Below, piece after piece: positions 37,303 through 50,981 of a DNA stretch of 64,000 bases; position 1 is the stretch's first letter, and every line of letters starts with the position of its first letter. A program made the translations under genes and the position numbers. The notes beneath the pieces were generated by a model. That model ran no database searches, was not told where the DNA came from, and saw only the letters and a program-made list of their open reading frames with translations. This DNA is from Humidesulfovibrio sp. (GTDB lineage Bacteria > Desulfobacterota > Desulfovibrionia > Desulfovibrionales > Desulfovibrionaceae): assembly GCF_031082295.1 (NCBI RefSeq), contig NZ_JAVHLD010000015.1, forward strand, positions 2,697-66,696. Reading direction: 5' to 3'.

Positions 37303-38241
37303 ATGCGCGTCGCTACTTCGCAGGAATACCTGGAGGCCATGCTGGAGGCCATCCGGCCCGGCACCGAGGAGGTGCTGGCCTTCTATGACCACCGCATCGG
37401 CGTCATCGGCACGGACCCGAAGCTCATGCTCATGCCCTGGGACGACCACCTGGTGCACCGGGGCGACGGCGTGTTCGAGACCATCAAGTACGTGGGCCGC
37501 AAGCTGTACCAGCTGGATCCGCACCTGCGGCGCATGAAGCTCTCCTGCCAGGCCATCCACCTGGAGCCGCCGTGCTCCTGGACGGAACTGAAGGAGGCCA
37601 TCATCGAGCTGGCCAGCGCTGGCAACGAGCCCGACGGGCTCATCCGCGTTCTGCTCGGCCGCGGGCCGGGCGGCTTCGGGGTGGACCCCTACGAGAGCCC
37701 GGTGCAGAGCCTGTACCTGGTGGCCTACCGCATGCACAAAAAGCCGGAGTCGTACTTCGACAAGGGCGTCACGGCCTTCCGCACCAGCATCCCGGCCAAG
37801 CAGGCCTGGATGGCCACGGTGAAGACCACCAACTATCTGCCCAACGTGCTCATGAAACGCGAGGCGGTGAACGGCGGCTTTGATTTCCCCTTCTGCTACG
37901 ACGACAAGGGGTTCCTGGCCGAGGGCGCGACCGAGAACGTCTGCCTCGTCGACGAGTCGGGCAAGCTGGTGATCCCTGAGTTCACCAACTCGCTGGCCGG
38001 AACCACGCTCATGCGCGCCGTGGATCTGGTGAAGGACGAAATGGACATCATCTTCAAGGGCGTCACCGAGGACGAGGTCTTCACCGCCCGCGAGGTCATG
38101 ATGGTGGGCACCAGCTTCGACTGCGTGTCCGTGGTGCGCTACAACAACAAGCCCATTCACGATGCCCGGCCCGGCCCGGTGAGCAAGCGCATCCGCGCGC
38201 TGCTCCAGGCCGACCTGGCGCTGAGCGGCACGGCGTTCTAA
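37303..38241 (+). CDS. Class IV PLP aminotransferase (IlvE/PabC/DAAT type)
   Basis: This fold-type IV family includes branched-chain aminotransferase, aminodeoxychorismate lyase and D-amino-acid transaminase. The 312 residues show HRGDGVFETIKY near residue 50, the PLP lysine in TVKTTNYLPNV and EGATENVCLV. Exact substrate cannot be told from sequence alone. The site AAGGAGG precedes the ATG, and the gene follows asd by 22 bp, so an amino acid role is likely. Confidence 0.88.
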   Translation: MRVATSQEYLEAMLEAIRPGTEEVLAFYDHRIGVIGTDPKLMLMPWDDHLVHRGDGVFETIKYVGRKLYQLDPHLRRMKLSCQAIHLEPPCSWTELKEAIIELASAGNEPDGLIRVLLGRGPGGFGVDPYESPVQSLYLVAYRMHKKPESYFDKGVTAFRTSIPAKQAWMATVKTTNYLPNVLMKREAVNGGFDFPFCYDDKGFLAEGATENVCLVDESGKLVIPEFTNSLAGTTLMRAVDLVKDEMDIIFKGVTEDEVFTAREVMMVGTSFDCVSVVRYNNKPIHDARPGPVSKRIRALLQADLALSGTAF

Positions 38242-38261
38242 GCCGCGCCAGCCCGAGCATG

Positions 38262-38309
38262 CAACAACGCCCGGTCCCCCTGTTTTGGGAGGCCGGGCGT
38301 TTTGTTGTT
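38262..38309. terminator. Bidirectional terminator between the aminotransferase gene and nifB
   Basis: CAACAACGCCCGG pairs with CCGGGCGTTTTGTTG; a T-rich arm follows on the plus strand and an A-rich arm gives T on the minus strand. It separates two convergent units and would end the nif operon. Confidence 0.8.
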
Positions 38310-38337
38310 GATGGGCCGCAAATGGCTTGAGCCGTCG

Positions 38338-39648
38338 CTAGCAGCCGTCGCCCGTGCCGCAGCAGGCCTTGCCCACGCCGCCGCGCCTGGCGCGCAGGGC
38401 TTCCAGCCTGGCTATGCCGTCCTCGCCGTAGGCCAGCGCCAGGGCTTCCTCGATGAACCCGGAGCAGGCCGCCGCCGGGGTGCCGCTCTCGGCCAGGATC
38501 CTGCGCGGGGTGTCGCCCACGGCCGCCACCAGCACGGCCCGGCAGTCGGACAGCAGCTTGGCCAGGTCCTCCCAGCGGGAAGGGCCGCACCCGGCGGTCG
38601 GGGCCTGCCGCTCCTCGACCATGCGGAAGCCGCCGTTTTCGGCCAGCCCCCAGATCTGGAAGCGCTTGGCTTCGCCCAGGTGCAGGTTCACCAGCAGGCC
38701 TTCGCGGGTGGCCACGGCCACGTAGGGGCGGTCGGCCTTGTTCGCGGGGGGCATCTTGCTGCAGGCGGAAAGCACGCCGCCAAGCTCGGTGGAGCGGTCG
38801 TGGCACAGGAGCCCCACGGCGTCGGCGCGGCAGCGGCGGCAGTGGGTCATTTGCGGCACCAGGGGGCCTGCCTCGGCGCGCAGGGCGTTTATCTGCTCCT
38901 TGGAGGGCTCGACGAGCTCTCCGAACGGGGTTCCCTCGGTGGGGTGCATGGGCATCAGGTTCTGCAGGTCCACGCCGAGTTCTTGAGCCTTTTGGGCCAC
39001 GGCCTGGATGTGGGTGTCGTTCACGCCGGGGATGACGATGGTGTTGACCTTCACGGCCAGCCCGCGGGCCTTCAGGCCTTCGATGGCCTCCAACTGGCGG
39101 CCGAGGATGAGCTCGGCGGCGTCCTGGCCGCGATAGACCACGTTTCCGTCGCGCACCCAGGAGTAGATCTTGGCGCCGATGGCCGGGTCGATGGTGTTGA
39201 GCGTCACCGTGGCGTGGGTAACGCCCAGGTCGGCCAGGTCGTCCAGGTACTCGGGCATGGCCAAACCGTTGGAGGACAGACAGAAGAGCATGTGCGGGTA
39301 TTCCTTGCGGATGAGGCGCATTGTCTCAAGCGTCTCCGCCGGGTTGGCCATGGGGTCGCCGGGGCCGGCGATGCCGATGACCGTGATGCGCGGTTCCTTG
39401 TCCAGCACCTGCCTGGTGTATTCCAGGGCCTGGAAGGGCTTCAGGATGCCGCTGGTCACGCCGGGGCGCGACTCGTTCACGCAGTCGTACTTTCTGTTGC
39501 AATAGTTGCACTGGATGTTGCACTTGGGCGCCACCGGCAGGTGCACGCGGCCGCAGGAGCCGGACGATTCCTTGTTGAAGCAGGGGTGCTTGACGGACTT
39601 CGGGTCGACACTGGCGGATGTGTTGGGAGTAGTGATGATGGTCTGCAT
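38338..39648 (-). CDS. nifB: Nitrogenase cofactor maturase NifB
   Basis: NifB builds NifB-co, the Fe8S9C core of the FeMo cofactor, by radical SAM chemistry. From the ATG at 39648 (AAAGGAGC upstream) the protein has 436 residues. The radical SAM cysteines are C43, C47 and C50 (CNIQCNYC). The conserved N-terminal HPCFNKESSG and the later GPGDPMANP and CRRCRADA motifs are present. The last third is the NifX/NafY-like cofactor-binding domain (VNLHLGEAKRF) common in bacterial NifB. It is the last gene of the nifH operon, 31 bp after nifN. Confidence 0.97.
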   Translation of the reverse strand: MQTIITTPNTSASVDPKSVKHPCFNKESSGSCGRVHLPVAPKCNIQCNYCNRKYDCVNESRPGVTSGILKPFQALEYTRQVLDKEPRITVIGIAGPGDPMANPAETLETMRLIRKEYPHMLFCLSSNGLAMPEYLDDLADLGVTHATVTLNTIDPAIGAKIYSWVRDGNVVYRGQDAAELILGRQLEAIEGLKARGLAVKVNTIVIPGVNDTHIQAVAQKAQELGVDLQNLMPMHPTEGTPFGELVEPSKEQINALRAEAGPLVPQMTHCRRCRADAVGLLCHDRSTELGGVLSACSKMPPANKADRPYVAVATREGLLVNLHLGEAKRFQIWGLAENGGFRMVEERQAPTAGCGPSRWEDLAKLLSDCRAVLVAAVGDTPRRILAESGTPAAACSGFIEEALALAYGEDGIARLEALRARRGGVGKACCGTGDGC

Positions 39649-39679
39649 GGTCGGCTCCTTTCTCTGATATGTCGAGCTG

Positions 39680-41122
39680 CTAGAGGTATCCGTAGCCGAT
39701 GTCGGAATCGTTCTGCTTCTTTTCAAGGACGAGGTTCACCAGCCGGTCGAACAGGGCCTGCGCGCCCCGGTAGCCCAGGTGCAGCAGCCGCTGCCCGCCG
39801 AAGCGGTCGTGGATGGGAAAGCCCACGCGCAGAAGCGGGATGTTCCACTCGCGCGCGGCCCGCTGGCCCTTGCTGTGGCCCACCAGCAGGTCCGGGGCGA
39901 GGGTCTTCGCCTCTTCCACGATGTCGAAGAAGTCCGCGCCCTCGCGAATTATCGGTCTCAGATGGGGGGGCATCTCCCGCAGCACGGAGCCGCAGGCCGC
40001 CTCAATGTGCGCGGAGAGGTTGCGGTTCCTGGCGCCGGTTGCCACCAGCACGGGGTGCACGCCGATCTCGGCCAGGAAGCTCGTCAGGCCGATGCACAGG
40101 TCTTCCTCGCCGTAGACCACGGCCTTGAGGCCGGAGACGTACTTGTGGCCGTCCACCAGGGAGTCGATGTAGCGGCCGCGCTCTAGAAGCAAATCGCGCG
40201 GGGTGTCGACCCCGGTGATGGACTTGAGCGTGGCGAACAGCGCGTCCGTCTCGCGGATGCCCATGGGCAGGCCCAGGCGGAACAGCGGGGTGCCGAAGCG
40301 TTCGTTGAGGGACGTGCCGGCGGTGTCCTGGGTCGAGATTGCCCGGCCCAGCTCCACGCTGGCGCGCGCGCCACTCATGGCGCGGATGTCGGCCACGCTG
40401 GTGCCGCCGGAGGGGATGTTCTCGTATTCCAGCAGGGCCGGGGCGTCGAGGGTCTCGGAGTAGTCCGGCAGGACGATTGCCTCCACGCCGAAGCCCCGGA
40501 AGATCTCCTTCAGGTGGCGGATGTCCGCCGGGGAGACCATGCCGGAGAAGAGGTTCACGCGGGAGTTGGCCGGGGCCGCGTTTTCCCGTGAGCCGGGGCA
40601 GAGCTGGTCCACGAGGGCCTTCACCGCGCCGTGGAAGCCGTCCATGTGCGTGCCGGAGTAGCTCGGCGTGGACACGTGCACCAGTTCTGCCAGCGGCAGG
40701 TCCTTGAACTCCTCGCGGAACTCGGTCAGCAGGCGCGCCACGTCGTCGCCAATGGTCTCGGTGAGGCAGGTGGTGGCAACGCCGATGACGCCCGCGCCGT
40801 ACTTCTGCATGGCGTTCAACAGGCCCTTCTTGAGGTTGGGGCCGCCGCCGTAGATGGCGTTCTTTTCGCCGAGCGACGAGGACGCGATGTCCATGGGCTC
40901 GCGGAAGTGGCTGATGATGTAGCGGCGCATGTAGGTGGCGCAGCCCTGGGAGCCGTGCAGGAAGCTCACCGCGCCCTCCACGCCCTTGAAGGCCAGGGTG
41001 GCGCCCAGCGGAGTGCACAGCTTGCAGGCGTTGGTGGTGGCGACGTTGCTTAAGCCCTTGTAGTCGCTGGCCGACGCGGCGGGAGCGCTGACTGCGGAAT
41101 CAATGACGGCGTTCAGGTCCAT
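39680..41122 (-). CDS. nifN: FeMo-cofactor scaffold subunit NifN
   Basis: NifN pairs with NifE to form the scaffold on which NifB-co is turned into FeMo-co. At 480 residues it is full length and resembles NifK, with cluster-ligand cysteines in ACKLCTPLG, HGSQGCATYM and TTCLTETIGDD. The start is ATG 41122, three bases after nifE's stop. The C terminus has the NifD/K-fold helix (SKGQRAAREW). It acts in the cytoplasm with NifE. Confidence 0.95.
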   Translation of the reverse strand: MDLNAVIDSAVSAPAASASDYKGLSNVATTNACKLCTPLGATLAFKGVEGAVSFLHGSQGCATYMRRYIISHFREPMDIASSSLGEKNAIYGGGPNLKKGLLNAMQKYGAGVIGVATTCLTETIGDDVARLLTEFREEFKDLPLAELVHVSTPSYSGTHMDGFHGAVKALVDQLCPGSRENAAPANSRVNLFSGMVSPADIRHLKEIFRGFGVEAIVLPDYSETLDAPALLEYENIPSGGTSVADIRAMSGARASVELGRAISTQDTAGTSLNERFGTPLFRLGLPMGIRETDALFATLKSITGVDTPRDLLLERGRYIDSLVDGHKYVSGLKAVVYGEEDLCIGLTSFLAEIGVHPVLVATGARNRNLSAHIEAACGSVLREMPPHLRPIIREGADFFDIVEEAKTLAPDLLVGHSKGQRAAREWNIPLLRVGFPIHDRFGGQRLLHLGYRGAQALFDRLVNLVLEKKQNDSDIGYGYL

Positions 41123-41125
41123 GGT

Positions 41126-42583
41126 CTACGCCTCCTCGATCGGACGGTTCTGGGACTCGCGCCGGGGCACGAACTGCCAAATGGGGCTCATGACCGAGGC
41201 GTGCACTTCCTTGGCGAAGTTCAGCATGCCCACGAAGCCCTCCAGCGCGATCTTGCGCTCGTGGTTGTGGTCGCAGAAGCCGACGCCCAGCTTGAAGGCG
41301 ATGGGGCGCTCCTTCACGCCGCCCACGAAGATGTCCACGTCCTTTTCCTTGAGGAAGGCGGACAGCTCCAGCGGGTTGGCGTCGTCCACCACGATGGTGC
41401 CGGGCGCGCAGATGGCGGCCAACTCGCGGTAGTCATCCTCGGTGCCGGTCTGGGAACCCACGATGACCACTTCCATGCCCAGGTGGCGGAAGGCCTTGAC
41501 CAGGGAGAAGGCCTTGAAGCTGCCGCCCACGTACACGGCGGCCTTCTTGCCCTCCAGGTCGCGGCGGAACTCCTTGAGCTGCGGCATGAGGGTGGCCAGC
41601 TCGTCGCGGACGAGGAGCGCGGTGCGCTCGACCATGCCCGCCGCCAGCTCCGGCTGGGTCAGCTCGAAATGCTCGGCCACGGCGTACAGGCTCTCGGCCA
41701 CGTCCTCGATGCCGATCCACGACACGCGCAGGAAGGGGATGCCGAAGTCCTCTCGCATCATCTTGGCCAGGTCCTGGGTGGAGCCGGAGCACTGCACGAG
41801 GTTCAGGGCCGCGCCGTGCGCGCGCTTGAGGTCGTCCACGCGGCCGTCGCCCGTGATCCCGGCCACCACCTCGATGCCCATGCGGTTCAGGTAGTCCTTG
41901 ATGATCCAGGTCTCGCCCGCCAGGTTGAAGTCGCCCATGATGTTCACGGAGAGCTTCGAAATGTCCGCGGTCTCGCCGGTGCCCACCAGGGTGCGCATGG
42001 CCTTGCACGCGGCCAGGTAGCCCTCGCGCTTGTTGCCCTTGAAGCCCTCGCTCTGCACCGGGATGACCGGGATGCCGTGGCGGGCGCTGGCGGCCTTGCA
42101 CACGGCGGCAAGGTCGTCGCCGATGAGGCCCACGATGCAGGTGGAGTACACGAAGGCGGCCTTGGGCTCGTAGCGCGGGATGAGCTCGTCCAGGGCCTTG
42201 GCCAGCTTCTTCTCGCCGCCGAACACGACGTCGAGCTCCTGCAGGTCGGTGCTGAAGGACAGGCGGTGCAGCTCCGGGCCGGAGGACAGCGCGCCACGGA
42301 TGTCCCAGGTGTAGGCAGCGCAGCCGATGGGGCCGTGCACCAGGTGCAGGGCGTCGGCGATGGGGTAGAGCACCACGCGCGAGCCGCAGAACACGCAGGC
42401 GCGCTGGCTCACCGCTCCGGCGAGGCTGTCGCGGTTGCAGGCCATGGCGAAGTCGCCGTCGCCCACGCGGTGGATCTGGTCCTTGCGCTCCTCGAATATT
42501 GTCGCACGCTCCGCAGGGATCGCCGCGGAATCTTCGGGGCAGGCGATGTGTTCCGGCGTGAGGGCCTTGGCTGTCTCGGTCAT
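41126..42583 (-). CDS. nifE: FeMo-cofactor scaffold subunit NifE
   Basis: NifE is the NifD-like half of the NifEN scaffold. The 485 residues hold the cysteines CVFCGSRVVLYP, HGPIGCAAYTW and STCIVGLIGDD that bind the [4Fe-4S] cluster and cofactor precursor. The start is ATG 42583. It lies after the GNAT gene and is tightly spaced with nifN (3 bp), so the two are made in equal amounts. No unusual feature is seen. Confidence 0.96.
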   Translation of the reverse strand: MTETAKALTPEHIACPEDSAAIPAERATIFEERKDQIHRVGDGDFAMACNRDSLAGAVSQRACVFCGSRVVLYPIADALHLVHGPIGCAAYTWDIRGALSSGPELHRLSFSTDLQELDVVFGGEKKLAKALDELIPRYEPKAAFVYSTCIVGLIGDDLAAVCKAASARHGIPVIPVQSEGFKGNKREGYLAACKAMRTLVGTGETADISKLSVNIMGDFNLAGETWIIKDYLNRMGIEVVAGITGDGRVDDLKRAHGAALNLVQCSGSTQDLAKMMREDFGIPFLRVSWIGIEDVAESLYAVAEHFELTQPELAAGMVERTALLVRDELATLMPQLKEFRRDLEGKKAAVYVGGSFKAFSLVKAFRHLGMEVVIVGSQTGTEDDYRELAAICAPGTIVVDDANPLELSAFLKEKDVDIFVGGVKERPIAFKLGVGFCDHNHERKIALEGFVGMLNFAKEVHASVMSPIWQFVPRRESQNRPIEEA

Positions 42584-42607
42584 GATGGACTCCCTTGTCC
42601 CGCTGCC

Positions 42608-43066
42608 CTAGGGCAGGGTGCGCCGCAGGCAGACGAGGTTTGTGGGCATGAAGCCGCAGGCGCGGTAGAAGTCGTGGGACGGCGCGTTGTCGCGGTCGGC
42701 CAGCAGTTGCAGGCGGGTGGCGCCCAGGCGCGTGCCCCAGGCCTCGATCCGTGTGAGCAGCGCCCGGCCGATGCCCAGGCCGCGAGACTCCGGCCGGACC
42801 ACCACGTCTTCCACCAGCAGCGACGGGCCGCCCTCTGCGGTGGAGACGACGACCTGGGCCGTGGCCATGCCGACCACCACGCCGGCGGTATCGGCCACAA
42901 GCACCAGGCGGTTCTTGGCGCCCTCTAGCATCTGCAGGAGGCCGTCGCGCTGCCGCCGCGCGTCCACCGCAAAGTCCGCCTCCAGGGAGAAGAGCATTCC
43001 CAGGAGTTCGACCAGGGCGTCCAGGTCGCTTGTGCGGGCTTCGCGGATGGTGCAGGCGGCAGTCAT
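42608..43066 (-). CDS. GNAT acetyltransferase inside the nif operon
   Basis: A 152-residue GNAT protein. The acetyl-CoA loop is VRPESRGLGIGRALL, the classic motif A with R/Q-x-x-G-x-G/A. The C-terminal Tyr of the general acid, F-Y-R-A-C-G-F, is present. It sits between the ferredoxin and nifE with short gaps (24 bp each side), so it is part of the nif transcript. What it acetylates is not known. Related genes occur in nif clusters of some Desulfovibrio, where the function is also unclear. Confidence 0.88.
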   Translation of the reverse strand: MTAACTIREARTSDLDALVELLGMLFSLEADFAVDARRQRDGLLQMLEGAKNRLVLVADTAGVVVGMATAQVVVSTAEGGPSLLVEDVVVRPESRGLGIGRALLTRIEAWGTRLGATRLQLLADRDNAPSHDFYRACGFMPTNLVCLRRTLP

Positions 43067-43090
43067 GGGATGCTCCTCTGAATGTCTGAA

Positions 43091-43405
43091 CTAGGACAGC
43101 AGATACTCGGCCGCGGGGGTGCCCGCTTCCAGGCCGTCGGCCATGGCATCGAGAATGGCGTCGATGGCTTCCTCGCTGTTCACGCCCTTGAACCAGAGGT
43201 TGTCGGGCTGAATCACCAGGATGGGGCCTTTCTCGCACTGCTTGAGACAGCCGGTGGTGGCGACCTGCACGTCCAGGCCGCGGTCCAGAATGCCTTCCTC
43301 GATGTACTGCAGCAGGCCGTCGGTCTGCTTGTGGCAGATGCCCTTGGGCTCCTTGCCCAGGCGGAAGCTCTGACAGACCAGGATGAGTTTTTCGGGCAGC
43401 GCCAT
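43091..43405 (-). CDS. Thioredoxin-like [2Fe-2S] ferredoxin
   Basis: The 104-residue protein is of the thioredoxin-fold ferredoxin type known from nif loci (Azotobacter FdII-like and NuoE-like). Four cysteines fit the cluster: C11, C24, C53 and C57 (CQS, CHK, GCLKQC). It could supply electrons to nitrogenase assembly or act as a cluster carrier. The spacing of the last pair (C-x3-C) is typical. The ATG at 43405 has AAGGAG upstream. It follows the NifB-like gene by 60 bp. Confidence 0.85.
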   Translation of the reverse strand: MALPEKLILVCQSFRLGKEPKGICHKQTDGLLQYIEEGILDRGLDVQVATTGCLKQCEKGPILVIQPDNLWFKGVNSEEAIDAILDAMADGLEAGTPAAEYLLS

Positions 43406-43465
43406 GGTGATGCTCCTTGAGGCTTGAGGTTGTTGTTTCGTTTGTGTCAGCTGAAAATGTTGAGT

Positions 43466-44809
43466 TTAATTAGCCTTCACACGCTTCTTGCCGTTTTTTT
43501 TTCCGCCTCCGTACAGGGCGTCCACAGCGGACTGCACATCCGCCTCGGTGGTCATGACCGTGATGCCGCGCTCGGAGAGCACCTTGCGGGGGTTTGCGCC
43601 CACGCTGGAGGCCAGAATGGCGAAGCAGTCGGACAGGGTGTCGGCAAGGGCGTTCCAGCGGGCGTCGCCGTTGCCGGAGCCCGTTGCCACCGGTTCCGGC
43701 GCGTTGCGGGTGCCAAGCAGGCTCGGCAGGCCGTCGCGCTCGCGCGGGCCGTAGACCAGAAAGCGGATGGCCTGGCCCAGGTGCAGGTCGACCTCGAGCC
43801 CGCCGGAGCTGGCCACGGCGACATTGGCGCGGCCGGGCGAGGGCTTGGGCAGGGCCGGGTTCTGGAGATCGAGCACCGCCGCGGTCCCGGCATGCTCCAC
43901 CCAGGTGATGTCCTGGCCGCAGGGATCGGCCTCGGGAACCAGGGCGATGTGCTTTGCGGCGGCGGCGCGCAGCTCTGCCAGGCGCTCCGGCGCCAGGGGC
44001 GGCAGGGCCGGGGCTTCCAGCTCCTGCATGGCGTCCGGCTGGTCGGCGGGCTTGCTGCCGCAGCTGGACGACGTGGCGCAGGAGGAGCACTTCACGGGGG
44101 TGCAGGGCACGCTGTCGCAGCCGCAGCCGGTGGCGCCGACGGGCGTCGCCGGGGTGAAGGGCAGCACGGCCAGCATGTCCGCGCCAAGCGAGGCCACGAT
44201 GCTCGCCACGTCGGGCACGTGCTCCTCGTTGATGCCCGCGTACACGGTCATGTTGACCTTGACGAAGAGCCCGGCCTCGCGAAGGTAGCGGATGGCCTGG
44301 GCCTGGGCGTCCACAAGCAGCCGGGAGGCCTCGGGCAGCGGCAGGGTGCGCTTGCCGGGGCGAATCCAGGCGAAAAGCTTTTCCACGATGAGCGGGTCCA
44401 CCGCGTCCACCAGCAGCGTCACCTGCGAGACCCCGGCCTCGGCCAGCTGGGCGGTCAGCTCGGCGATGGAGGTGTCCTGCGGGCACAGGCCGATGGTGGT
44501 CAGCGAGAGCGACAGCTCCGGGTGGGCGGCGCGTACGGCGCGCAGCGTCTCAAGGGTCGTGGCCGGATCGGCCAGGGGGTCGCCGGGGCCGCTGATGCCC
44601 ACGGTGGAGAGCTTGACGCCTCCGTCCGTGGTGTCGGACAGCACGCGGTCCAGCCACTGGGTCACGTCGCGAGGGGAAAGGGCGCGGCCGGGGGTCTCGG
44701 GTTCGCCGAAACGGCGGCGCACGTTTGTCTTGGCGGCCACGGGCAGGAAGATGCTCCCGCCCTTGGCGCATGCGGACCTGGTGGGGCTGGGGTTGGCGGC
44801 GTTTGTCAT
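43466..44809 (-). CDS. NifB paralogue lacking radical-SAM cysteines, with NifX-like domain
   Basis: The 447-residue protein follows the NifB plan from end to end: GISGPGDPLADPATTLETL (71-89), barrel segments such as VKVNMTVYAGINEEHVPDV (184-201), and a C-terminal NifX-like domain (VAVASSGGLEVDLHLGQA). But where NifB has the three Cys of CxxxCxxC it reads TNVRRRF at 28-34, so the SAM cluster cannot form. It has a unique Cys-rich stretch at 229-250 (Cys 229, 231, 236, 241, 244, 250). The ATG has AGGAG upstream, and the frame is intact. It sits between nifK and the ferredoxin. It may be a cofactor carrier, metal donor or scaffold instead of a radical enzyme. Confidence 0.9.
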   Translation of the reverse strand: MTNAANPSPTRSACAKGGSIFLPVAAKTNVRRRFGEPETPGRALSPRDVTQWLDRVLSDTTDGGVKLSTVGISGPGDPLADPATTLETLRAVRAAHPELSLSLTTIGLCPQDTSIAELTAQLAEAGVSQVTLLVDAVDPLIVEKLFAWIRPGKRTLPLPEASRLLVDAQAQAIRYLREAGLFVKVNMTVYAGINEEHVPDVASIVASLGADMLAVLPFTPATPVGATGCGCDSVPCTPVKCSSCATSSSCGSKPADQPDAMQELEAPALPPLAPERLAELRAAAAKHIALVPEADPCGQDITWVEHAGTAAVLDLQNPALPKPSPGRANVAVASSGGLEVDLHLGQAIRFLVYGPRERDGLPSLLGTRNAPEPVATGSGNGDARWNALADTLSDCFAILASSVGANPRKVLSERGITVMTTEADVQSAVDALYGGGKKNGKKRVKAN

Positions 44810-44854
44810 CGGCGGCTCCTGTTCGCGGGCTTGAGAGTGGCGGCGTTTGTCCCG

Positions 44855-44898
44855 CCCCCGGTCCGGCGCCGTCTGCTGGACGGGGCGCGGACCGGGGG
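44855..44898 (-). promoter_or_regulatory. Strong hairpin between nifK and the NifB-like gene
   Basis: CCCCCGGTCCG (44855-44865) pairs with CGGACCGGGGG (44888-44898), an 11-bp perfect stem with a 22-base loop. It sits in the 99-bp gap after nifK. There is no T-run after it in the transcribed direction. It could protect the nifHDK part of the message or reduce expression of the cofactor genes. Confidence 0.6.
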
Positions 44899-44908
44899 GC
44901 AGGGGAGG

Positions 44909-46282
44909 TTAAAGGGTCAGCTCGAACTGGGTCTCGGAGTCGTCACGGTCCTTGCGGTCGAGGAGGAGGCCCAGAATCTTCTCCAGCAGGCGCAGGCCGC
45001 CCTTGTAGCCGACGGTGGGGAAGTACTGGTGCCCAACGCGGTCAAGGATGGGGAAGCCCCAGCGCAGGAACGGGAGGTCCTCGTCGCGGGAGATATACTT
45101 GCCGTAGGTGTTGCCGATGAGCAGATCCACGGGCTCGTTCTTGATCCACTGGTGCAGCAGGAACATGTCGCCGCCGGCCTTGACGTTCACCTCGTAGGGC
45201 AGGTGGGCGGTGAGCTCCTTGATGCGCTTTTCGAACTTGCTGCCCGGAGTGCCGGTGACCATGTGCGTGGGCCACATGTCGATGGACACCAGGAACTCGG
45301 TCATGGCGATGAGCTGGTCGGGATCGCCGAAGAGGGCGACCTTCTTCTGGTAGTAGTACTGGTGGGAGTCGCTGATCATGTCCACCAGCTGGCCGCGCTC
45401 GCGGGTGATCTCCTCGGGCACGGAGGTGCCCGCGATGATGCGCAGGGCGTCGACGAAGCGGTCCGTGGCCTTCAGGCCGAAGGGCATGTCCAGCACCTTG
45501 CAGGGCACCTTGCAGCGCGTGTCCAGGCTGCGCGCGGCGTCCGCGCTGCACCACTCGCCCAGAGCCAGGGTGCCGACTGCGTCGCCGGCTTCCTTCAGCT
45601 CCTTCATGGTCACGCCGCCTTCCGGGAACATGTGGTACTCTCCGGAGAGAGGACCGTTCAGCACGCCGGAGGTGTCGGGGAAGAGCGTGATGGGCACGGC
45701 CATGAGAGCCGCCAGGCGCTTGAGCTCCTCCATGTCCGCGGGCTCGACCCAGCCGGGGATGACGTTGACCTTGCCGTTCTTCTTGCCGGTGTTCTCGGCC
45801 ACCTCGGTCATGCCCTTGACCATGTTCGAGAAGCCGGTGACGTGCGAGCCGATGTAGGACGGCGTGTTGCAGTAGATGATGTGCTTGCCCTTGGGCACCA
45901 GGCCGGACTTCTCCGCCTTGTCGCGGATCTGCTTGATGTCGTCGCCGATGGTTTCCGACAGGCAGGTGGTGTGCACGGCGATGACTTCCGGCTCATAGAC
46001 CGTGAAGATGTTCTCGATGGCCTGCAGCAGGTTGGCCTGTCCGCCGAAGACGCTGGCGCCCTCGGTGAAGGAGCTGGTGGCCGCGCTGATGGGCTCCTTG
46101 TAGTGCTTGGTGAGCGCGCTTCTGTGGTAGGCGCAGCAACCCTGGGAGCCGTGGCTGTGGGGCAGGCATCCGTGGACGCCGAGCGCCGCGTACATGGCGC
46201 CGATGGGCTGGCAGGTCTTGGCCGGGTTCACGACCAGGGCGCTGCGTTCCTTGATTTCCTTGGGTGTGTGTCTGAGCAACAT
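44909..46282 (-). CDS. nifK: Nitrogenase MoFe protein beta subunit NifK
   Basis: NifK forms the alpha2beta2 MoFe protein with NifD and holds half of the P-cluster. The 457 residues are shorter than Azotobacter NifK because the long N-terminal extension is absent, as in the group with nifI genes. P-cluster cysteines are in NPAKTCQP, HGSQGCCAYHR and HTTCLSETIGDD. The start is 14 bp after nifD on the same strand. Confidence 0.97.
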   Translation of the reverse strand: MLLRHTPKEIKERSALVVNPAKTCQPIGAMYAALGVHGCLPHSHGSQGCCAYHRSALTKHYKEPISAATSSFTEGASVFGGQANLLQAIENIFTVYEPEVIAVHTTCLSETIGDDIKQIRDKAEKSGLVPKGKHIIYCNTPSYIGSHVTGFSNMVKGMTEVAENTGKKNGKVNVIPGWVEPADMEELKRLAALMAVPITLFPDTSGVLNGPLSGEYHMFPEGGVTMKELKEAGDAVGTLALGEWCSADAARSLDTRCKVPCKVLDMPFGLKATDRFVDALRIIAGTSVPEEITRERGQLVDMISDSHQYYYQKKVALFGDPDQLIAMTEFLVSIDMWPTHMVTGTPGSKFEKRIKELTAHLPYEVNVKAGGDMFLLHQWIKNEPVDLLIGNTYGKYISRDEDLPFLRWGFPILDRVGHQYFPTVGYKGGLRLLEKILGLLLDRKDRDDSETQFELTL

Positions 46283-46295
46283 AGTGTGATCCTCG

Positions 46296-47930
46296 CTATT
46301 CCCAGACGTAGGTGGCCGAGAGTTCGGGGTTCTCCTGCCAGGGGGCCTTCATGAAACCCCAGACCTTGCTGTTCACCAGGCGGTCGATTTCCTTGTAGAA
46401 ATTTACCGCGCCCTGGAATCCGGCATAGGGTCCGCCGTAGTCGTAGCTGTGCAGCTGCTTCAGGGGGATGCCGAGCTTCTGGATGGAGTACTTCTCCTTG
46501 ATGCCCGCGCAGAAGATGTCGGGCTTGATCATTTCCACAAGCTTCTCGGCCTCGTACTGATTGAGGTCGTCGATGACGAGGGTGCCCTTGTCCATGTCCG
46601 GGATCAGGCCCTTGTAGTCCTTGAACTCGAAGCCGGAGTCGGTGAGCGCCTTCATCTCCTCCTCGCTCTTGCGGGGGGCGAAGCGCTCCGGGTCGGCCTC
46701 GACCTCGATCTCCTCGATGTTGCGGGAGTCGGCGTCGACCTTGAGGCCCGGGATGACTTCGCGGCCCTCGTAGTCGTCGCGGTGGCCGAACTCGTAGCCG
46801 GTGGACACGGTCTTCATGCCGAGTTCATTGAAGAGCTCCATGTAGTGGTGCGCGCGCGAGCCGCCCACGAAGAGCATGGCCGTCTTGCCCTCGGTGCGGG
46901 GCTTGATGTCCTCAAGGGCTGCCTTCACGGCGGGCATTTCGGCGGCGATGACGGCCTCAATGCGGTCGATGAGCGTCTTGTCGCCGAAGTACTGGCCGAT
47001 CTTGCGCAGGGACTTGGCGGTGGCCTCGGCCCCGATGAAGTTCACCTTGATCCAGGGGATGCCGTACTTGGTCTCCAGCATGTCGGCCACGTAGTTGATG
47101 GAGCGGTGGCACATGACGCAGGACAGGTCGGCCGTGTGCGCGCTGGCGAACTGGTCGTAGGTGGAGTTGCCGGAGAAGGTGGCGATGTTGGTGATGCCGC
47201 ACAGCTTCAGGATGCGGTCGATCTCGAAGCCGTCGCCGCCGATGTTGTACTCGCCCAGCAGGTTGATCTTGTATTCGCCGGGCTTCTTTTCGTCGTTCTG
47301 GCCCACGAGGTGCTTGAACACCTGGTTGTTGGCGATGTGGTGGCCGGCGGACTGGCTTACTCCCTTGTAGCCCTCGCAGGAGAAGGCGAAGACGTTGCAG
47401 TCGCCGAACTTGTCCTTCATCTCCTTGGCCACGGCGTGGATGTCGTCGCCGATGAGGCCCACGGGGCAGGTGGCGAACACGGCGATGCCCTTGGGGTGGA
47501 AGAGGTCGTAGGCTTCCTGGATGGCCGCCTTGAGCTTCTTCTCGCCGCCGAAGATGACGTCGGAATCCTGCATGTCGGTGGAGAAGGCGTAGGTCATGTA
47601 GTTCTCGCCGGTCTCGCCCGCGTCGGTCTGGTTGCGGCGGGTGAGCCACGCGTAGAAGCTGCAGCCGATGGGGCCGTGCACCAGGTTCACGATGTCGCGG
47701 GTGGGGCCCATGATGACGCCCTTGCAACCTGCGTAGGTGCAGCCGCGCATGGTGATGATGCCGGGGATGGTGCGCACGTTTGCCTGGATTTCCGGCGTGG
47801 TGTTCGAGAGGGCCTCATTGATGAGGATGGACGAGGCGCGCTTGCGGGCCACCTTGGGGGGATACTTCTTGAGCATCTCCTCCTTGACCTCGGCTGGGGT
47901 CCACTGCGCGGGCTTGCTCTGTGTGGCCAT
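46296..47930 (-). CDS. nifD: Nitrogenase MoFe protein alpha subunit NifD
   Basis: NifD carries the FeMo cofactor where N2 is reduced. The 544 residues have P-cluster cysteines C64, C90 and C155 and cofactor ligands C274 (VMCHRSINY) and H494 (QLHSYDYGGPY). A stretch of about 50 residues beyond the Azotobacter protein lies near residues 385-440 (rich in Glu and Asp), the insert known in Clostridium-type NifD. That fits the class with nifI1/I2. Full-length and intact. Confidence 0.98.
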   Translation of the reverse strand: MATQSKPAQWTPAEVKEEMLKKYPPKVARKRASSILINEALSNTTPEIQANVRTIPGIITMRGCTYAGCKGVIMGPTRDIVNLVHGPIGCSFYAWLTRRNQTDAGETGENYMTYAFSTDMQDSDVIFGGEKKLKAAIQEAYDLFHPKGIAVFATCPVGLIGDDIHAVAKEMKDKFGDCNVFAFSCEGYKGVSQSAGHHIANNQVFKHLVGQNDEKKPGEYKINLLGEYNIGGDGFEIDRILKLCGITNIATFSGNSTYDQFASAHTADLSCVMCHRSINYVADMLETKYGIPWIKVNFIGAEATAKSLRKIGQYFGDKTLIDRIEAVIAAEMPAVKAALEDIKPRTEGKTAMLFVGGSRAHHYMELFNELGMKTVSTGYEFGHRDDYEGREVIPGLKVDADSRNIEEIEVEADPERFAPRKSEEEMKALTDSGFEFKDYKGLIPDMDKGTLVIDDLNQYEAEKLVEMIKPDIFCAGIKEKYSIQKLGIPLKQLHSYDYGGPYAGFQGAVNFYKEIDRLVNSKVWGFMKAPWQENPELSATYVWE

Positions 47931-47964
47931 GGTATTGGCTCCTTACCCTTGTGATGACGGGCCG

Positions 47965-48339
47965 TTAGATGATGGACTTTTCGCCGGACTCGGCGGTGCG
48001 CACGCGCACGGCGTCAGTCATGGGCATGACGAAGATCTTGCCGTCGCCAGGCTTGCCGGTCTGGTTCACCTCGATGAGGGTCTTGACCACGGACTTCACG
48101 GCCTTGTCCGGCACCACCACGGAGATCATGCGCTTGGGATACAGCTTGCCCTTTTCGCCCAGGAGCGCGGCAGCCTCTTCGTAGCCGCTGGCGGCGCCCT
48201 CCAGCACGTGGGGGTTGGCCAGGCCGACGCCGCGTCCCTGCGCCTCATGGGCGAAGAAGCCGTCGATGCCGGCATCGGTGAGAGCCTGCTTGGTGCGGTT
48301 CATCATGTTCATGCGCACCACCGCGATGACTTCCTTCAT
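47965..48339 (-). CDS. nifI2: PII-like nitrogenase regulator NifI2
   Basis: NifI2 is a PII signal protein that with NifI1 binds and blocks the MoFe protein when ammonium is available, and lets go on 2-oxoglutarate. The 124 residues have the PII fold, with the T-loop (QGRGVGLANP...GKLYPKRMIS) and B-loop TGKPGDGKIFVMP. It lacks the uridylylation Tyr at the GlnB position. It lies 4 bp after nifI1 and before nifD. Confidence 0.92.
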   Translation of the reverse strand: MKEVIAVVRMNMMNRTKQALTDAGIDGFFAHEAQGRGVGLANPHVLEGAASGYEEAAALLGEKGKLYPKRMISVVVPDKAVKSVVKTLIEVNQTGKPGDGKIFVMPMTDAVRVRTAESGEKSII

Positions 48340-48343
48340 GGGG

Positions 48344-48688
48344 CTACGCCTCCTCGGGTGTGGCCGTTTCGCAAACGCCGGAGCTGACGGTGTAGACCTC
48401 GTCCACGGGGCAGATGAAGATCTTGCCGTCGCCGAAGGCGCCCTTCTTGCCGGAGCGGGCGGCGGTCATGATGGTCTCCACCACGAAGTCGCGGTCGGCG
48501 TTCTTGACCACGCTCATGAGCATGGTCTTGGGGATCTCGTCATAGGTGACCTCGCCGATCTTGATGCCGCGCTGCTTGCCGCGCCCGGCCACGGAGAACT
48601 TGGTCACTGCGGGGAATCCGGCGTCCATGAGGGCCGCCAGGACGTCATCAGCCTTCTCGGGACGGACGATTGCTCTCACCATGATCAT
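48344..48688 (-). CDS. nifI1: PII-like nitrogenase regulator NifI1
   Basis: NifI1 is the partner of NifI2. The 114-residue protein starts MIMVRAIVRPEKADDV, typical of NifI1, with B-loop SGKKGAFGDGKIFI. I start at the ATG at 48688 because GGAGGAAATTCAT precedes it. The location between nifH and nifD is diagnostic for the archaeal/clostridial/deltaproteobacterial type of post-translational control, which replaces DraT/DraG. Confidence 0.93.
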   Translation of the reverse strand: MIMVRAIVRPEKADDVLAALMDAGFPAVTKFSVAGRGKQRGIKIGEVTYDEIPKTMLMSVVKNADRDFVVETIMTAARSGKKGAFGDGKIFICPVDEVYTVSSGVCETATPEEA

Positions 48689-48719
48689 ATGAATTTCCTC
48701 CTTGCCTTTCGCGTTGTGG

Positions 48720-49703
<984 letters not shown>

Positions 49704-49810
49704 CTACATACCAAAAGTGTATGAACTACGTTTTTGTATGCTGGTCGGCGGCGGGGATGGACTGTGAGCAACATGCTGAAATTGCAGTTCTTGCCCCCAC
49801 ATCGAGCGTT

Positions 49811-49826
49811 TGGCATCAGAGGTGCA
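49811..49826 (+). promoter_or_regulatory. Sigma-54 promoter of the nifV-mod unit
   Basis: TGGCATC-AGAG-GTGCA has the GG-N10-GC spacing of sigma-54 sites. It is 30 bases before the nifV ATG, with the start site near 49837 and the ribosome site AGGGAGGG just after. It is opposite to the nifH promoter, so one intergenic region serves both. Confidence 0.7.
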
Positions 49827-49856
49827 ACCCTCCTTGCCAAGACCAAGGGAGGGCGT

Positions 49857-50981
49857 ATGCTCATCGACAGTACGCTGAGGGAAGGGGCACAGGCCTACGG
49901 AGTCTACTTTTCAACCGCAGCACGCCGCCGCATGGCCGAGATCATGGCCGCAGCCGGGGTCGACGAGATCGAGTGCGGCTGGCTGGGCCAGGAGGGCCTG
50001 CCGGAGTTCATGGCATGGGCCAGGGAGAAGCTGCCCCGGCTGGAACAGGGGGGGCCGGCGCTTTCGCTCTGGTGTCCCTGCCGCGAGGCCGACGTGCGCG
50101 AGGCCGCAGCCCTTGGCGTGGACCGCCTGAACATCGGCGCGCCGTCCTCGTCCGCGCACCGGCAGAAGCGCCTGGGGTTGTCCCTGGCCGAGATGTGCGA
50201 GCGCGTGGACTACGTGGTGGGCGCGGCTCGCGCCGCCATGGTCCCCTACATTTCCGTCGGCCTGGAGGATGTCTCCCGGGCCGCCCCGCATGAGGCCCTG
50301 GCCCTGGCCCGCGTTGCCGTGCAGGCTGGCGCCTCGCGCATCCGCCTGTCGGACACGGTGGGTGTGCTGACGCCGCTCTCCACGGCCCGGCTGCTGGGGA
50401 GCTTCCTGCGCGAGATCGCCGTGCCGGTGGCCTTCCACGGCCATAACGACCTGGGCATGGCCACGGCCAACGCCGTCACGGCGCTGGAGTGCGGTGCGGG
50501 CTTTGTGGATGTCTCGGCCCTGGGCCTAGGCGAACGGGCGGGCATCGCGGCCCTGGAGGAGGTGGCCGCCTGGCTGGCCCTGCGCGCCTCTGCCGCCATG
50601 CAGGGGCAGGCCGTTTACGACGTCCCGGCCCTGCGCGAGCTGTGCCGGCTGGCTGCACAGGCCGCCAAGACGACAGTGCCGCGCAACAAGGCCGTGGCCG
50701 GGGAAGATGTCTTCGCCGCGGAGTCGGGCATTCATGTGCACGGCCTGTTGCGTGATCCGTCCCTGTTCGAGCCCTTCGCCCCCGAAGCCGTCGGTGCCAC
50801 CCGGCGCGTGGGGGTCGGGTCCAAGAGCGGCGGCGCGGCGGTGAGCGCCACCCTGGCGCGGCTGAGCAGGCCGTCCGACCGCGGTTGCGGTGGCGACGCA
50901 AGCCTTATGGAGCGGGTGCGCACGCTTGCCTGTCGCCTGGGCCGCCCGCTCACCGATTCGGAATTGCTGGGAGTCCTGTAG
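49857..50981 (+). CDS. nifV: Homocitrate synthase NifV
   Basis: NifV makes homocitrate, the organic ligand of FeMo-co, from acetyl-CoA and 2-oxoglutarate. The 374 residues have the DRE-TIM barrel start DSTLREGAQ, the metal-binding FHGHNDLGMA, and ESGIHVHG near residue 285. I chose the ATG at 49857 since a strong site precedes it and the longer frame lacks family similarity. First gene of the plus-strand unit. Confidence 0.93.
   Translation: MLIDSTLREGAQAYGVYFSTAARRRMAEIMAAAGVDEIECGWLGQEGLPEFMAWAREKLPRLEQGGPALSLWCPCREADVREAAALGVDRLNIGAPSSSAHRQKRLGLSLAEMCERVDYVVGAARAAMVPYISVGLEDVSRAAPHEALALARVAVQAGASRIRLSDTVGVLTPLSTARLLGSFLREIAVPVAFHGHNDLGMATANAVTALECGAGFVDVSALGLGERAGIAALEEVAAWLALRASAAMQGQAVYDVPALRELCRLAAQAAKTTVPRNKAVAGEDVFAAESGIHVHGLLRDPSLFEPFAPEAVGATRRVGVGSKSGGAAVSATLARLSRPSDRGCGGDASLMERVRTLACRLGRPLTDSELLGVL

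Follow-up and report, generated by a model that had tools for sequence, protein, structure and literature searches.

NifB, NafY/NifY and NifX are the closest described systems to the gene analysed here. NifB (TIGR01290), the maturase of the FeMo-co core, has a two-domain layout in which a radical-SAM barrel with a GPG loop is joined to a NifX-like domain. NifX (TIGR02663) is a NifB-co carrier that stands alone (158 aa in 9ian), and NafY combines an apo-NifDK-binding N-domain, the helical DIMCO_N, with a FeMo-co-binding NifX-like domain. H35 of NifX and H121 of NafY have been shown to bind NifB-co and FeMo-co (PMC13128457, PMC8496260). No description of a NifB without the radical-SAM motif was found in the literature searched, in which subscription papers are mostly not included, and the NifB survey PMC5715403 removed sequences that did not have all six motifs. 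Motif-filtered surveys of this kind would, by that survey's own description, have discarded such copies. In PMC11505543, a Pseudodesulfovibrio nif cluster is given as nifB_1 and nifB_2, both labelled NifB scaffold proteins, with Fd, nifE and nifN, and we found no mention there of radical-SAM motif loss. The two genes are very likely the same pair as the paralogue and NifB described below; as such copies have been named nifB, counts of nifB by annotation overstate NifB.

The locus studied here carries such a paralogue. It shares with NifB the two-domain layout, the barrel, the GPG loop and the NifX-like domain, which indicates clear common descent, but differs in the absence of the SAM motif, the deletion of the K1 Cys and ExRP, the broken Cx2CRxDAxG, a score of 147 bits and a clade of its own (100/100). 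Like NafY and NifY it consists of an N-domain and a C-terminal NifX-like domain and is encoded near nifK, with the cofactor His as in NafY; its N-domain, however, is a NifB barrel and not DIMCO_N, and FeMo-co binding is known for NafY only. With NifX it shares the cofactor motif DxH[FL]G, whereas it has no match to the NifX model at E 0.1.

Operon context and gene model

The window, that is, the whole 64,000-nucleotide stretch of DNA that was analysed, carries a nif operon on its minus strand in the order nifH-nifI1-nifI2-nifD-nifK-pseudo-NifB-[2Fe-2S] ferredoxin-GNAT-nifE-nifN-nifB (Table 1), with nifV and the mod genes lying divergently on the operon's other side. The frame of pseudo-NifB starts with ATG, preceded by AGGAG at 6 nt, and is spaced by 99 bp from nifK and by 60 bp from the ferredoxin gene. 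The sigma-54-like site before nifH may be the operon promoter, a weak assignment with three such matches in the window against 2.7 expected, and the minus strand showed no terminator-like site from 38000 to 50000, which is likewise weak as evidence. A GNAT acetyltransferase gene between Fd and nifE is seen here and in many Desulfobacterota loci.

Table 1. Coordinates in the window of the operon genes and of the features of pseudo-NifB
Feature	Coordinates	Strand	Remarks
nifH	48720-49565	-	
Sigma-54-like site	49602..49617	-	TGGCACGCCCCTTGCC, upstream of nifH
nifK	44909..46282	-	upstream neighbour
pseudo-NifB	43466..44809	-	447-aa NifB paralogue next to nifK, with a NifX-like domain and a dead radical-SAM barrel
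TNVRRRF	44708..44728	-	aa 28-34, in the place of the radical-SAM CxxxCxxC
Cys-rich insert core	44060..44125	-	aa 229-250
NifX-like domain	43502..43837	-	aa 325-436, better conserved half of the paralogue
H343 of DLHLG	43781..43783	-	aligned with NifX H35 and NafY H121
[2Fe-2S] ferredoxin	43091..43405	-	thioredoxin-like; constant downstream neighbour
GNAT acetyltransferase	42608..43066	-	frequent operon member
nifE	41126..42583	-	
nifN	39680..41122	-	
True nifB	38338..39648	-	complete triad and NifB motifs; exceeds the TIGR01290 cut-off (396.6 bits)

A whole-genome search with the window protein (genome 99.99% complete) returned two NifB-family proteins only, pseudo-NifB and the true NifB. In the Pfam scan both Radical_SAM and Nitro_FeMo-Co match pseudo-NifB, and TIGR01290 matches residues 66-432 (E 6e-43, 147.1 bits) without reaching its cut-off of 343.65. 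Pfam, TIGR01290 and the alignment thus agree with the initial annotation, which had described a NifB homologue along its full length with TNVRRRF instead of CxxxCxxC. A frameshift or sequencing error in this stretch is ruled out by relatives: TNVRRRF is also found in the independently assembled relative L033 (90-91% identical), the pair has a dN/dS of 0.18, which equals that of their NifB, and the triad is gone in all 51 aligned paralogues.

Spread of the family and intermediates

The family was searched for with a protein query in 348 genomes of the order and with profiles both in the order and in 395 genomes of the phylum; a contig scan with the single window protein as query, meant to reach other phyla, matched only the nearest relative. 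Within the order, at least 66 genomes carry the full-length paralogue, and a score gap separates paralogues (at least 399 bits) from NifB (at most 348 bits). Outside the order, paralogues occur in 14 genomes from six other families of the phylum; 12 of these genomes were recognized by score and two (L088 and L089) by position. The locus order across the family is nifH-I1-I2-D-K-paralogue-Fd-(GNAT)-E-N-B, E-N-B lying outside the stretch read at some loci. At these loci the triad is missing from all copies beside nifK and intact in all NifB copies downstream of nifN; nifK-adjacent copies that keep CxxxCxxC are confined to genera g34 and g35 (see below). Wherever the sequence could be read, a full NifB accompanies the paralogue, within the operon or elsewhere in the genome. 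Relatives without the paralogue also exist (Nitratidesulfovibrio vulgaris RCH1, G022 and most of 20 further loci), nifK being followed directly by Fd or nifE, and the NifB motifs are the same in genomes with and without it.

A tree built from 37 paralogues and 58 NifB sequences (4 from other phyla) consists of two groups split by one branch (100/100). In the genera with two NifB-like scores (g2, g14, g16, g30, g34 and g35) a copy lies between nifK and Fd, and the NifX-type His is found in 10/10 copies of these added genera. A single triad Cys is left in the g2 and g14 copies, while four copies in g34 and g35 keep CxxxCxxC and C63 and lack C30 and C129, those of g35 additionally lacking H43 and the K2 pair. 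Homologues that keep CxxxCxxC, which the initial annotation had named as evidence against its reading, therefore do occur, but only as these four copies in two genera, which are without the C30 and C129 equivalents. The triad-bearing copies (L126 11026-12426, L139 5183-6508, L127 4756-6120 and L129 6499-7860) could still bind SAM but are not expected to build NifB-co; lacking these K1 ligands, they look more like an early step in the same loss than like working NifB.

In the extended tree one branch again separates the nifK-adjacent copies from NifB (100/100), with the triad-less copies set apart (99/94) and the triad-bearing ones between them and NifB. Mapped onto the NifDK tree, the distribution of the paralogue takes three changes, for which one gain and two losses is the simplest account. 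A single duplication into the operon was probably followed by loss of the K-cluster and SAM sites, the carrier-type His being kept throughout. The triad may have been lost once or several times: the paralogue tree implies a single loss, whereas the NifDK tree groups triad-bearing with some triad-less copies (94). NifB, triad-bearing copy, partly decayed copy and triad-less copy form a graded series for the loss of radical-SAM function.

The NifB-co docking site of A. vinelandii NifE has been described as conserved in all NifE. In the phylum, an N-terminal docking pair of the A. vinelandii type (C15, C25) seems to be missing from NifE whether or not the paralogue is present, with only a Cys in the ACNRDSLAGAVSQRAC stretch being constant. 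We rejected the idea that the paralogue took over this docking role, because the NifE N-terminus is equally short with and without it and no correlation is seen.

Residues lost and kept, constraint and fold

Ligands are numbered as in M. acetivorans NifB (PMC6053413, PMC7145814), the numbers being transferred by motif and spacing. Across the NifB triad stretch the window paralogue reads AAKTNVRRRFGE----------PETPG, with TNVRRRFGE followed by a gap of about 10 aa. This deletion just after TNVRRRF takes out the NifB segment with ExRP and the YDC Cys that is a K1 ligand. The same loss runs through the family: the SAM cysteines C50, C54 and C57 are found in 0/51 aligned paralogues, the K1 ligand C63 is deleted in 49/51 and ExRP in at least 47/51. 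Part of the K1 site is kept by most members outside the window's genus (C30 in 33, H43 in 38 and C129 in 29 of the 51), whereas the window protein has none of the three equivalents, its columns for the HPC motif and the K1 His (HLPVA) holding S and F. The K2 motif Cx2CRxDAxG is broken; only its second Cys is common (39/51), and it is the one that remains in the window protein (C297). The N column of TxTxN holds D in the window protein and 44/51 relatives, and the AGPG loop reads SGPG in the window protein, the first G of GPG being present in all 51. At the level of aligned residues, the paralogue has demonstrably lost canonical SAM-cluster binding and most K1 and K2 ligands. Neither SAM cleavage nor NifB-co synthesis is expected of it in view of the published NifB ligand mutants, from which we infer that it makes no NifB-co.

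The NifX-like domain shows the opposite pattern. All 51 paralogues have its His and its DC-motif Cys, and the equivalent of H343 is present in 61/61 copies when 10 early copies are added. In sequence alignment H343 corresponds to H35 of NifX (9ian) and to the His of the NafY core (1p90), both structures being among the fold matches of the paralogue. Two residues before it, D341 is D in 98% of paralogues, while the same column is N in 96% of NifB, so that the motif reads DxHLG in the paralogue, NxHLG in NifB and DxHFG in NifX and NafY.

Among the 31 genomes that have both proteins, mean pairwise identity in the paralogue is 0.49 for the barrel and 0.59 for the NifX-like domain, compared to 0.70 and 0.59 in NifB, which indicates that constraint has moved to the NifX-like domain. 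Ten barrel positions are fixed to letters rare or absent in NifB (e.g., R31, R33, L133, P151, L158 and T188), and the AlphaFold2 model is a NifB barrel with pLDDT mostly above 90 in residues 80-220; for these two reasons the barrel is more than the product of simple decay. By fold comparison the model is closest to NifB (7jma, Z 28.6), the next family reaching 19.5.

Candidate cofactor escort and competing explanations

On this sequence evidence the paralogue is probably a non-catalytic, NifB-derived cofactor escort with the dead barrel as docking module. A NifB duplicate that probably came once to lie between nifK and the ferredoxin gene lost the SAM cluster and most K1/K2 ligands, and would have been kept for its C-terminal NifX-like domain. 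This domain would bind NifB-co and/or FeMo-co end-on through H343 and escort the cofactor on its way from NifB to NifEN or on its way from NifEN to apo-NifDK, with docking provided by the barrel. End-on binding and escort are suggested by the place in the operon, the DxHLG motif with its invariant His, and the shifted constraint. For the broader history we lean, by a little, towards a radical-SAM maturase turned cofactor escort by duplication within its own operon, leaving phylum-wide conserved NifB pseudoenzymes that would carry NifB-co or FeMo-co, with triad-bearing intermediates and a Cys-box clade. The initial annotation had offered a cofactor carrier as one option; with the His kept in 61/61 copies and the NifB catalytic ligands lost, it is now the best reading. 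The family would then be a candidate carrier in this phylum, and a natural separation of NifX-like function from NifB catalysis.

No NifX (TIGR02663) scored over the cut-off in the 41 phylum genomes checked, so no better candidate carrier is evident, and a search with PF16844 (NafY) gave no match in any genome, controls included, which makes it uninformative on NafY. Four considerations restrain the escort reading. Retention of the His is no proof of an independent carrier, since NifB itself has the same His; a separate carrier is not obligatory in the phylum's many nif-bearing genomes that lack both the paralogue and a recognized NifX; and the absence of the DIMCO_N domain of NafY from the paralogue (Pfam scan) counts against it, as do the family-specific fixed barrel residues, which a mere docking module would not need.

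These fixed residues and the retained barrel fold fit the main rival of the carrier reading, in which the paralogue is a regulatory or structural partner of the true NifB, a pseudoenzyme paired with its enzyme, and adjusts K-cluster loading, SAM turnover or the release of product. The constant company of a full NifB and the partly kept K1 site of most members outside the window's genus also fit. We nevertheless regard this as unlikely, with the barrel being the faster-evolving half, C30, H43 and C129 missing from the window protein, and the NifB motifs indifferent to the presence of the paralogue.

The escort reading competes also with that of a placeholder or antagonist sitting at the site on NifEN or NifDK where the cofactor docks, a role suggested for NifY and NafX, which have NifX-like domains of the same family. 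The position after nifK resembles that of nifTY, which follow nifK in Azotobacter. The cofactor His that is invariant in the paralogue is absent in NifY and NafX (PMC13128457), and such a role seems improbable.

The cysteine-rich insert, which the initial annotation had described as new, is not supported as part of the defining function of the protein. The six cysteines at 229-250 are present in the window protein (229, 231, 236, 241, 244 and 250), but only four of them, the box CxPxxCxSCx5C (C236, C241, C244 and C250), are conserved, and this in the seven members of one clade within the window's genus (support 100/95), where C229 and C231 vary. The box is absent from the other 44 aligned paralogues, which share gene position and all core features, and with 7/61 copies carrying it the insert is ruled out as a core feature. 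That the box binds an Fe-S cluster or zinc, making the proteins of the window's clade new metalloproteins serving as metal or sulfur donors, is in keeping with its four cysteines in 7/7 members; its restriction to one clade of a family that shares the same position and core features, and the pLDDT near 40 at which the region is modelled, make this very doubtful.

The remaining explanation, a decaying relic or annotation artefact, draws on the lost catalytic residues and on an evolution faster than that of the neighbours, but is already contradicted, and hardly credible, in the face of intact frames, a dN/dS of 0.18 in the closest pair, invariant H343 and C395, synteny conserved across families and newly fixed residues. 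Here the initial view of an intact, selected NifB-derived protein without radical-SAM chemistry is supported.

The history of the window gene also differs from that of its operon. In trees of nifI2, D, K, Fd, E and N the window and L033 fall with L067, L068, L094 and L095 (100/100), whereas in the paralogue tree, computed without the insert columns, they join the box-bearing group (95/93). The operon grouping, when tested on the paralogue, is disfavoured (AU p 0.016), and dS between the window and L067 is 0.49 for the paralogue against 0.24-0.34 for the neighbours. The simplest reading of these trees and distances is a likely exchange of the paralogue gene alone within the genus.

Two further forms of NifB-family genes were observed. 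Stand-alone small NifX-like ORFs (~100-113 aa) lie near nifB in families f69 and f27 (L080 862-1128, G488:C1:2402-2674 and G368:C1:2537799-2538074), L080 and G488 also carrying the nifK-adjacent paralogue. In genus g18 (G096, G098, G110, G118 and G138), where no nifK-adjacent paralogue was found, NifB-family open frames of ~930-960 aa are present, whose length suggests fusions such as NifB-NifN.
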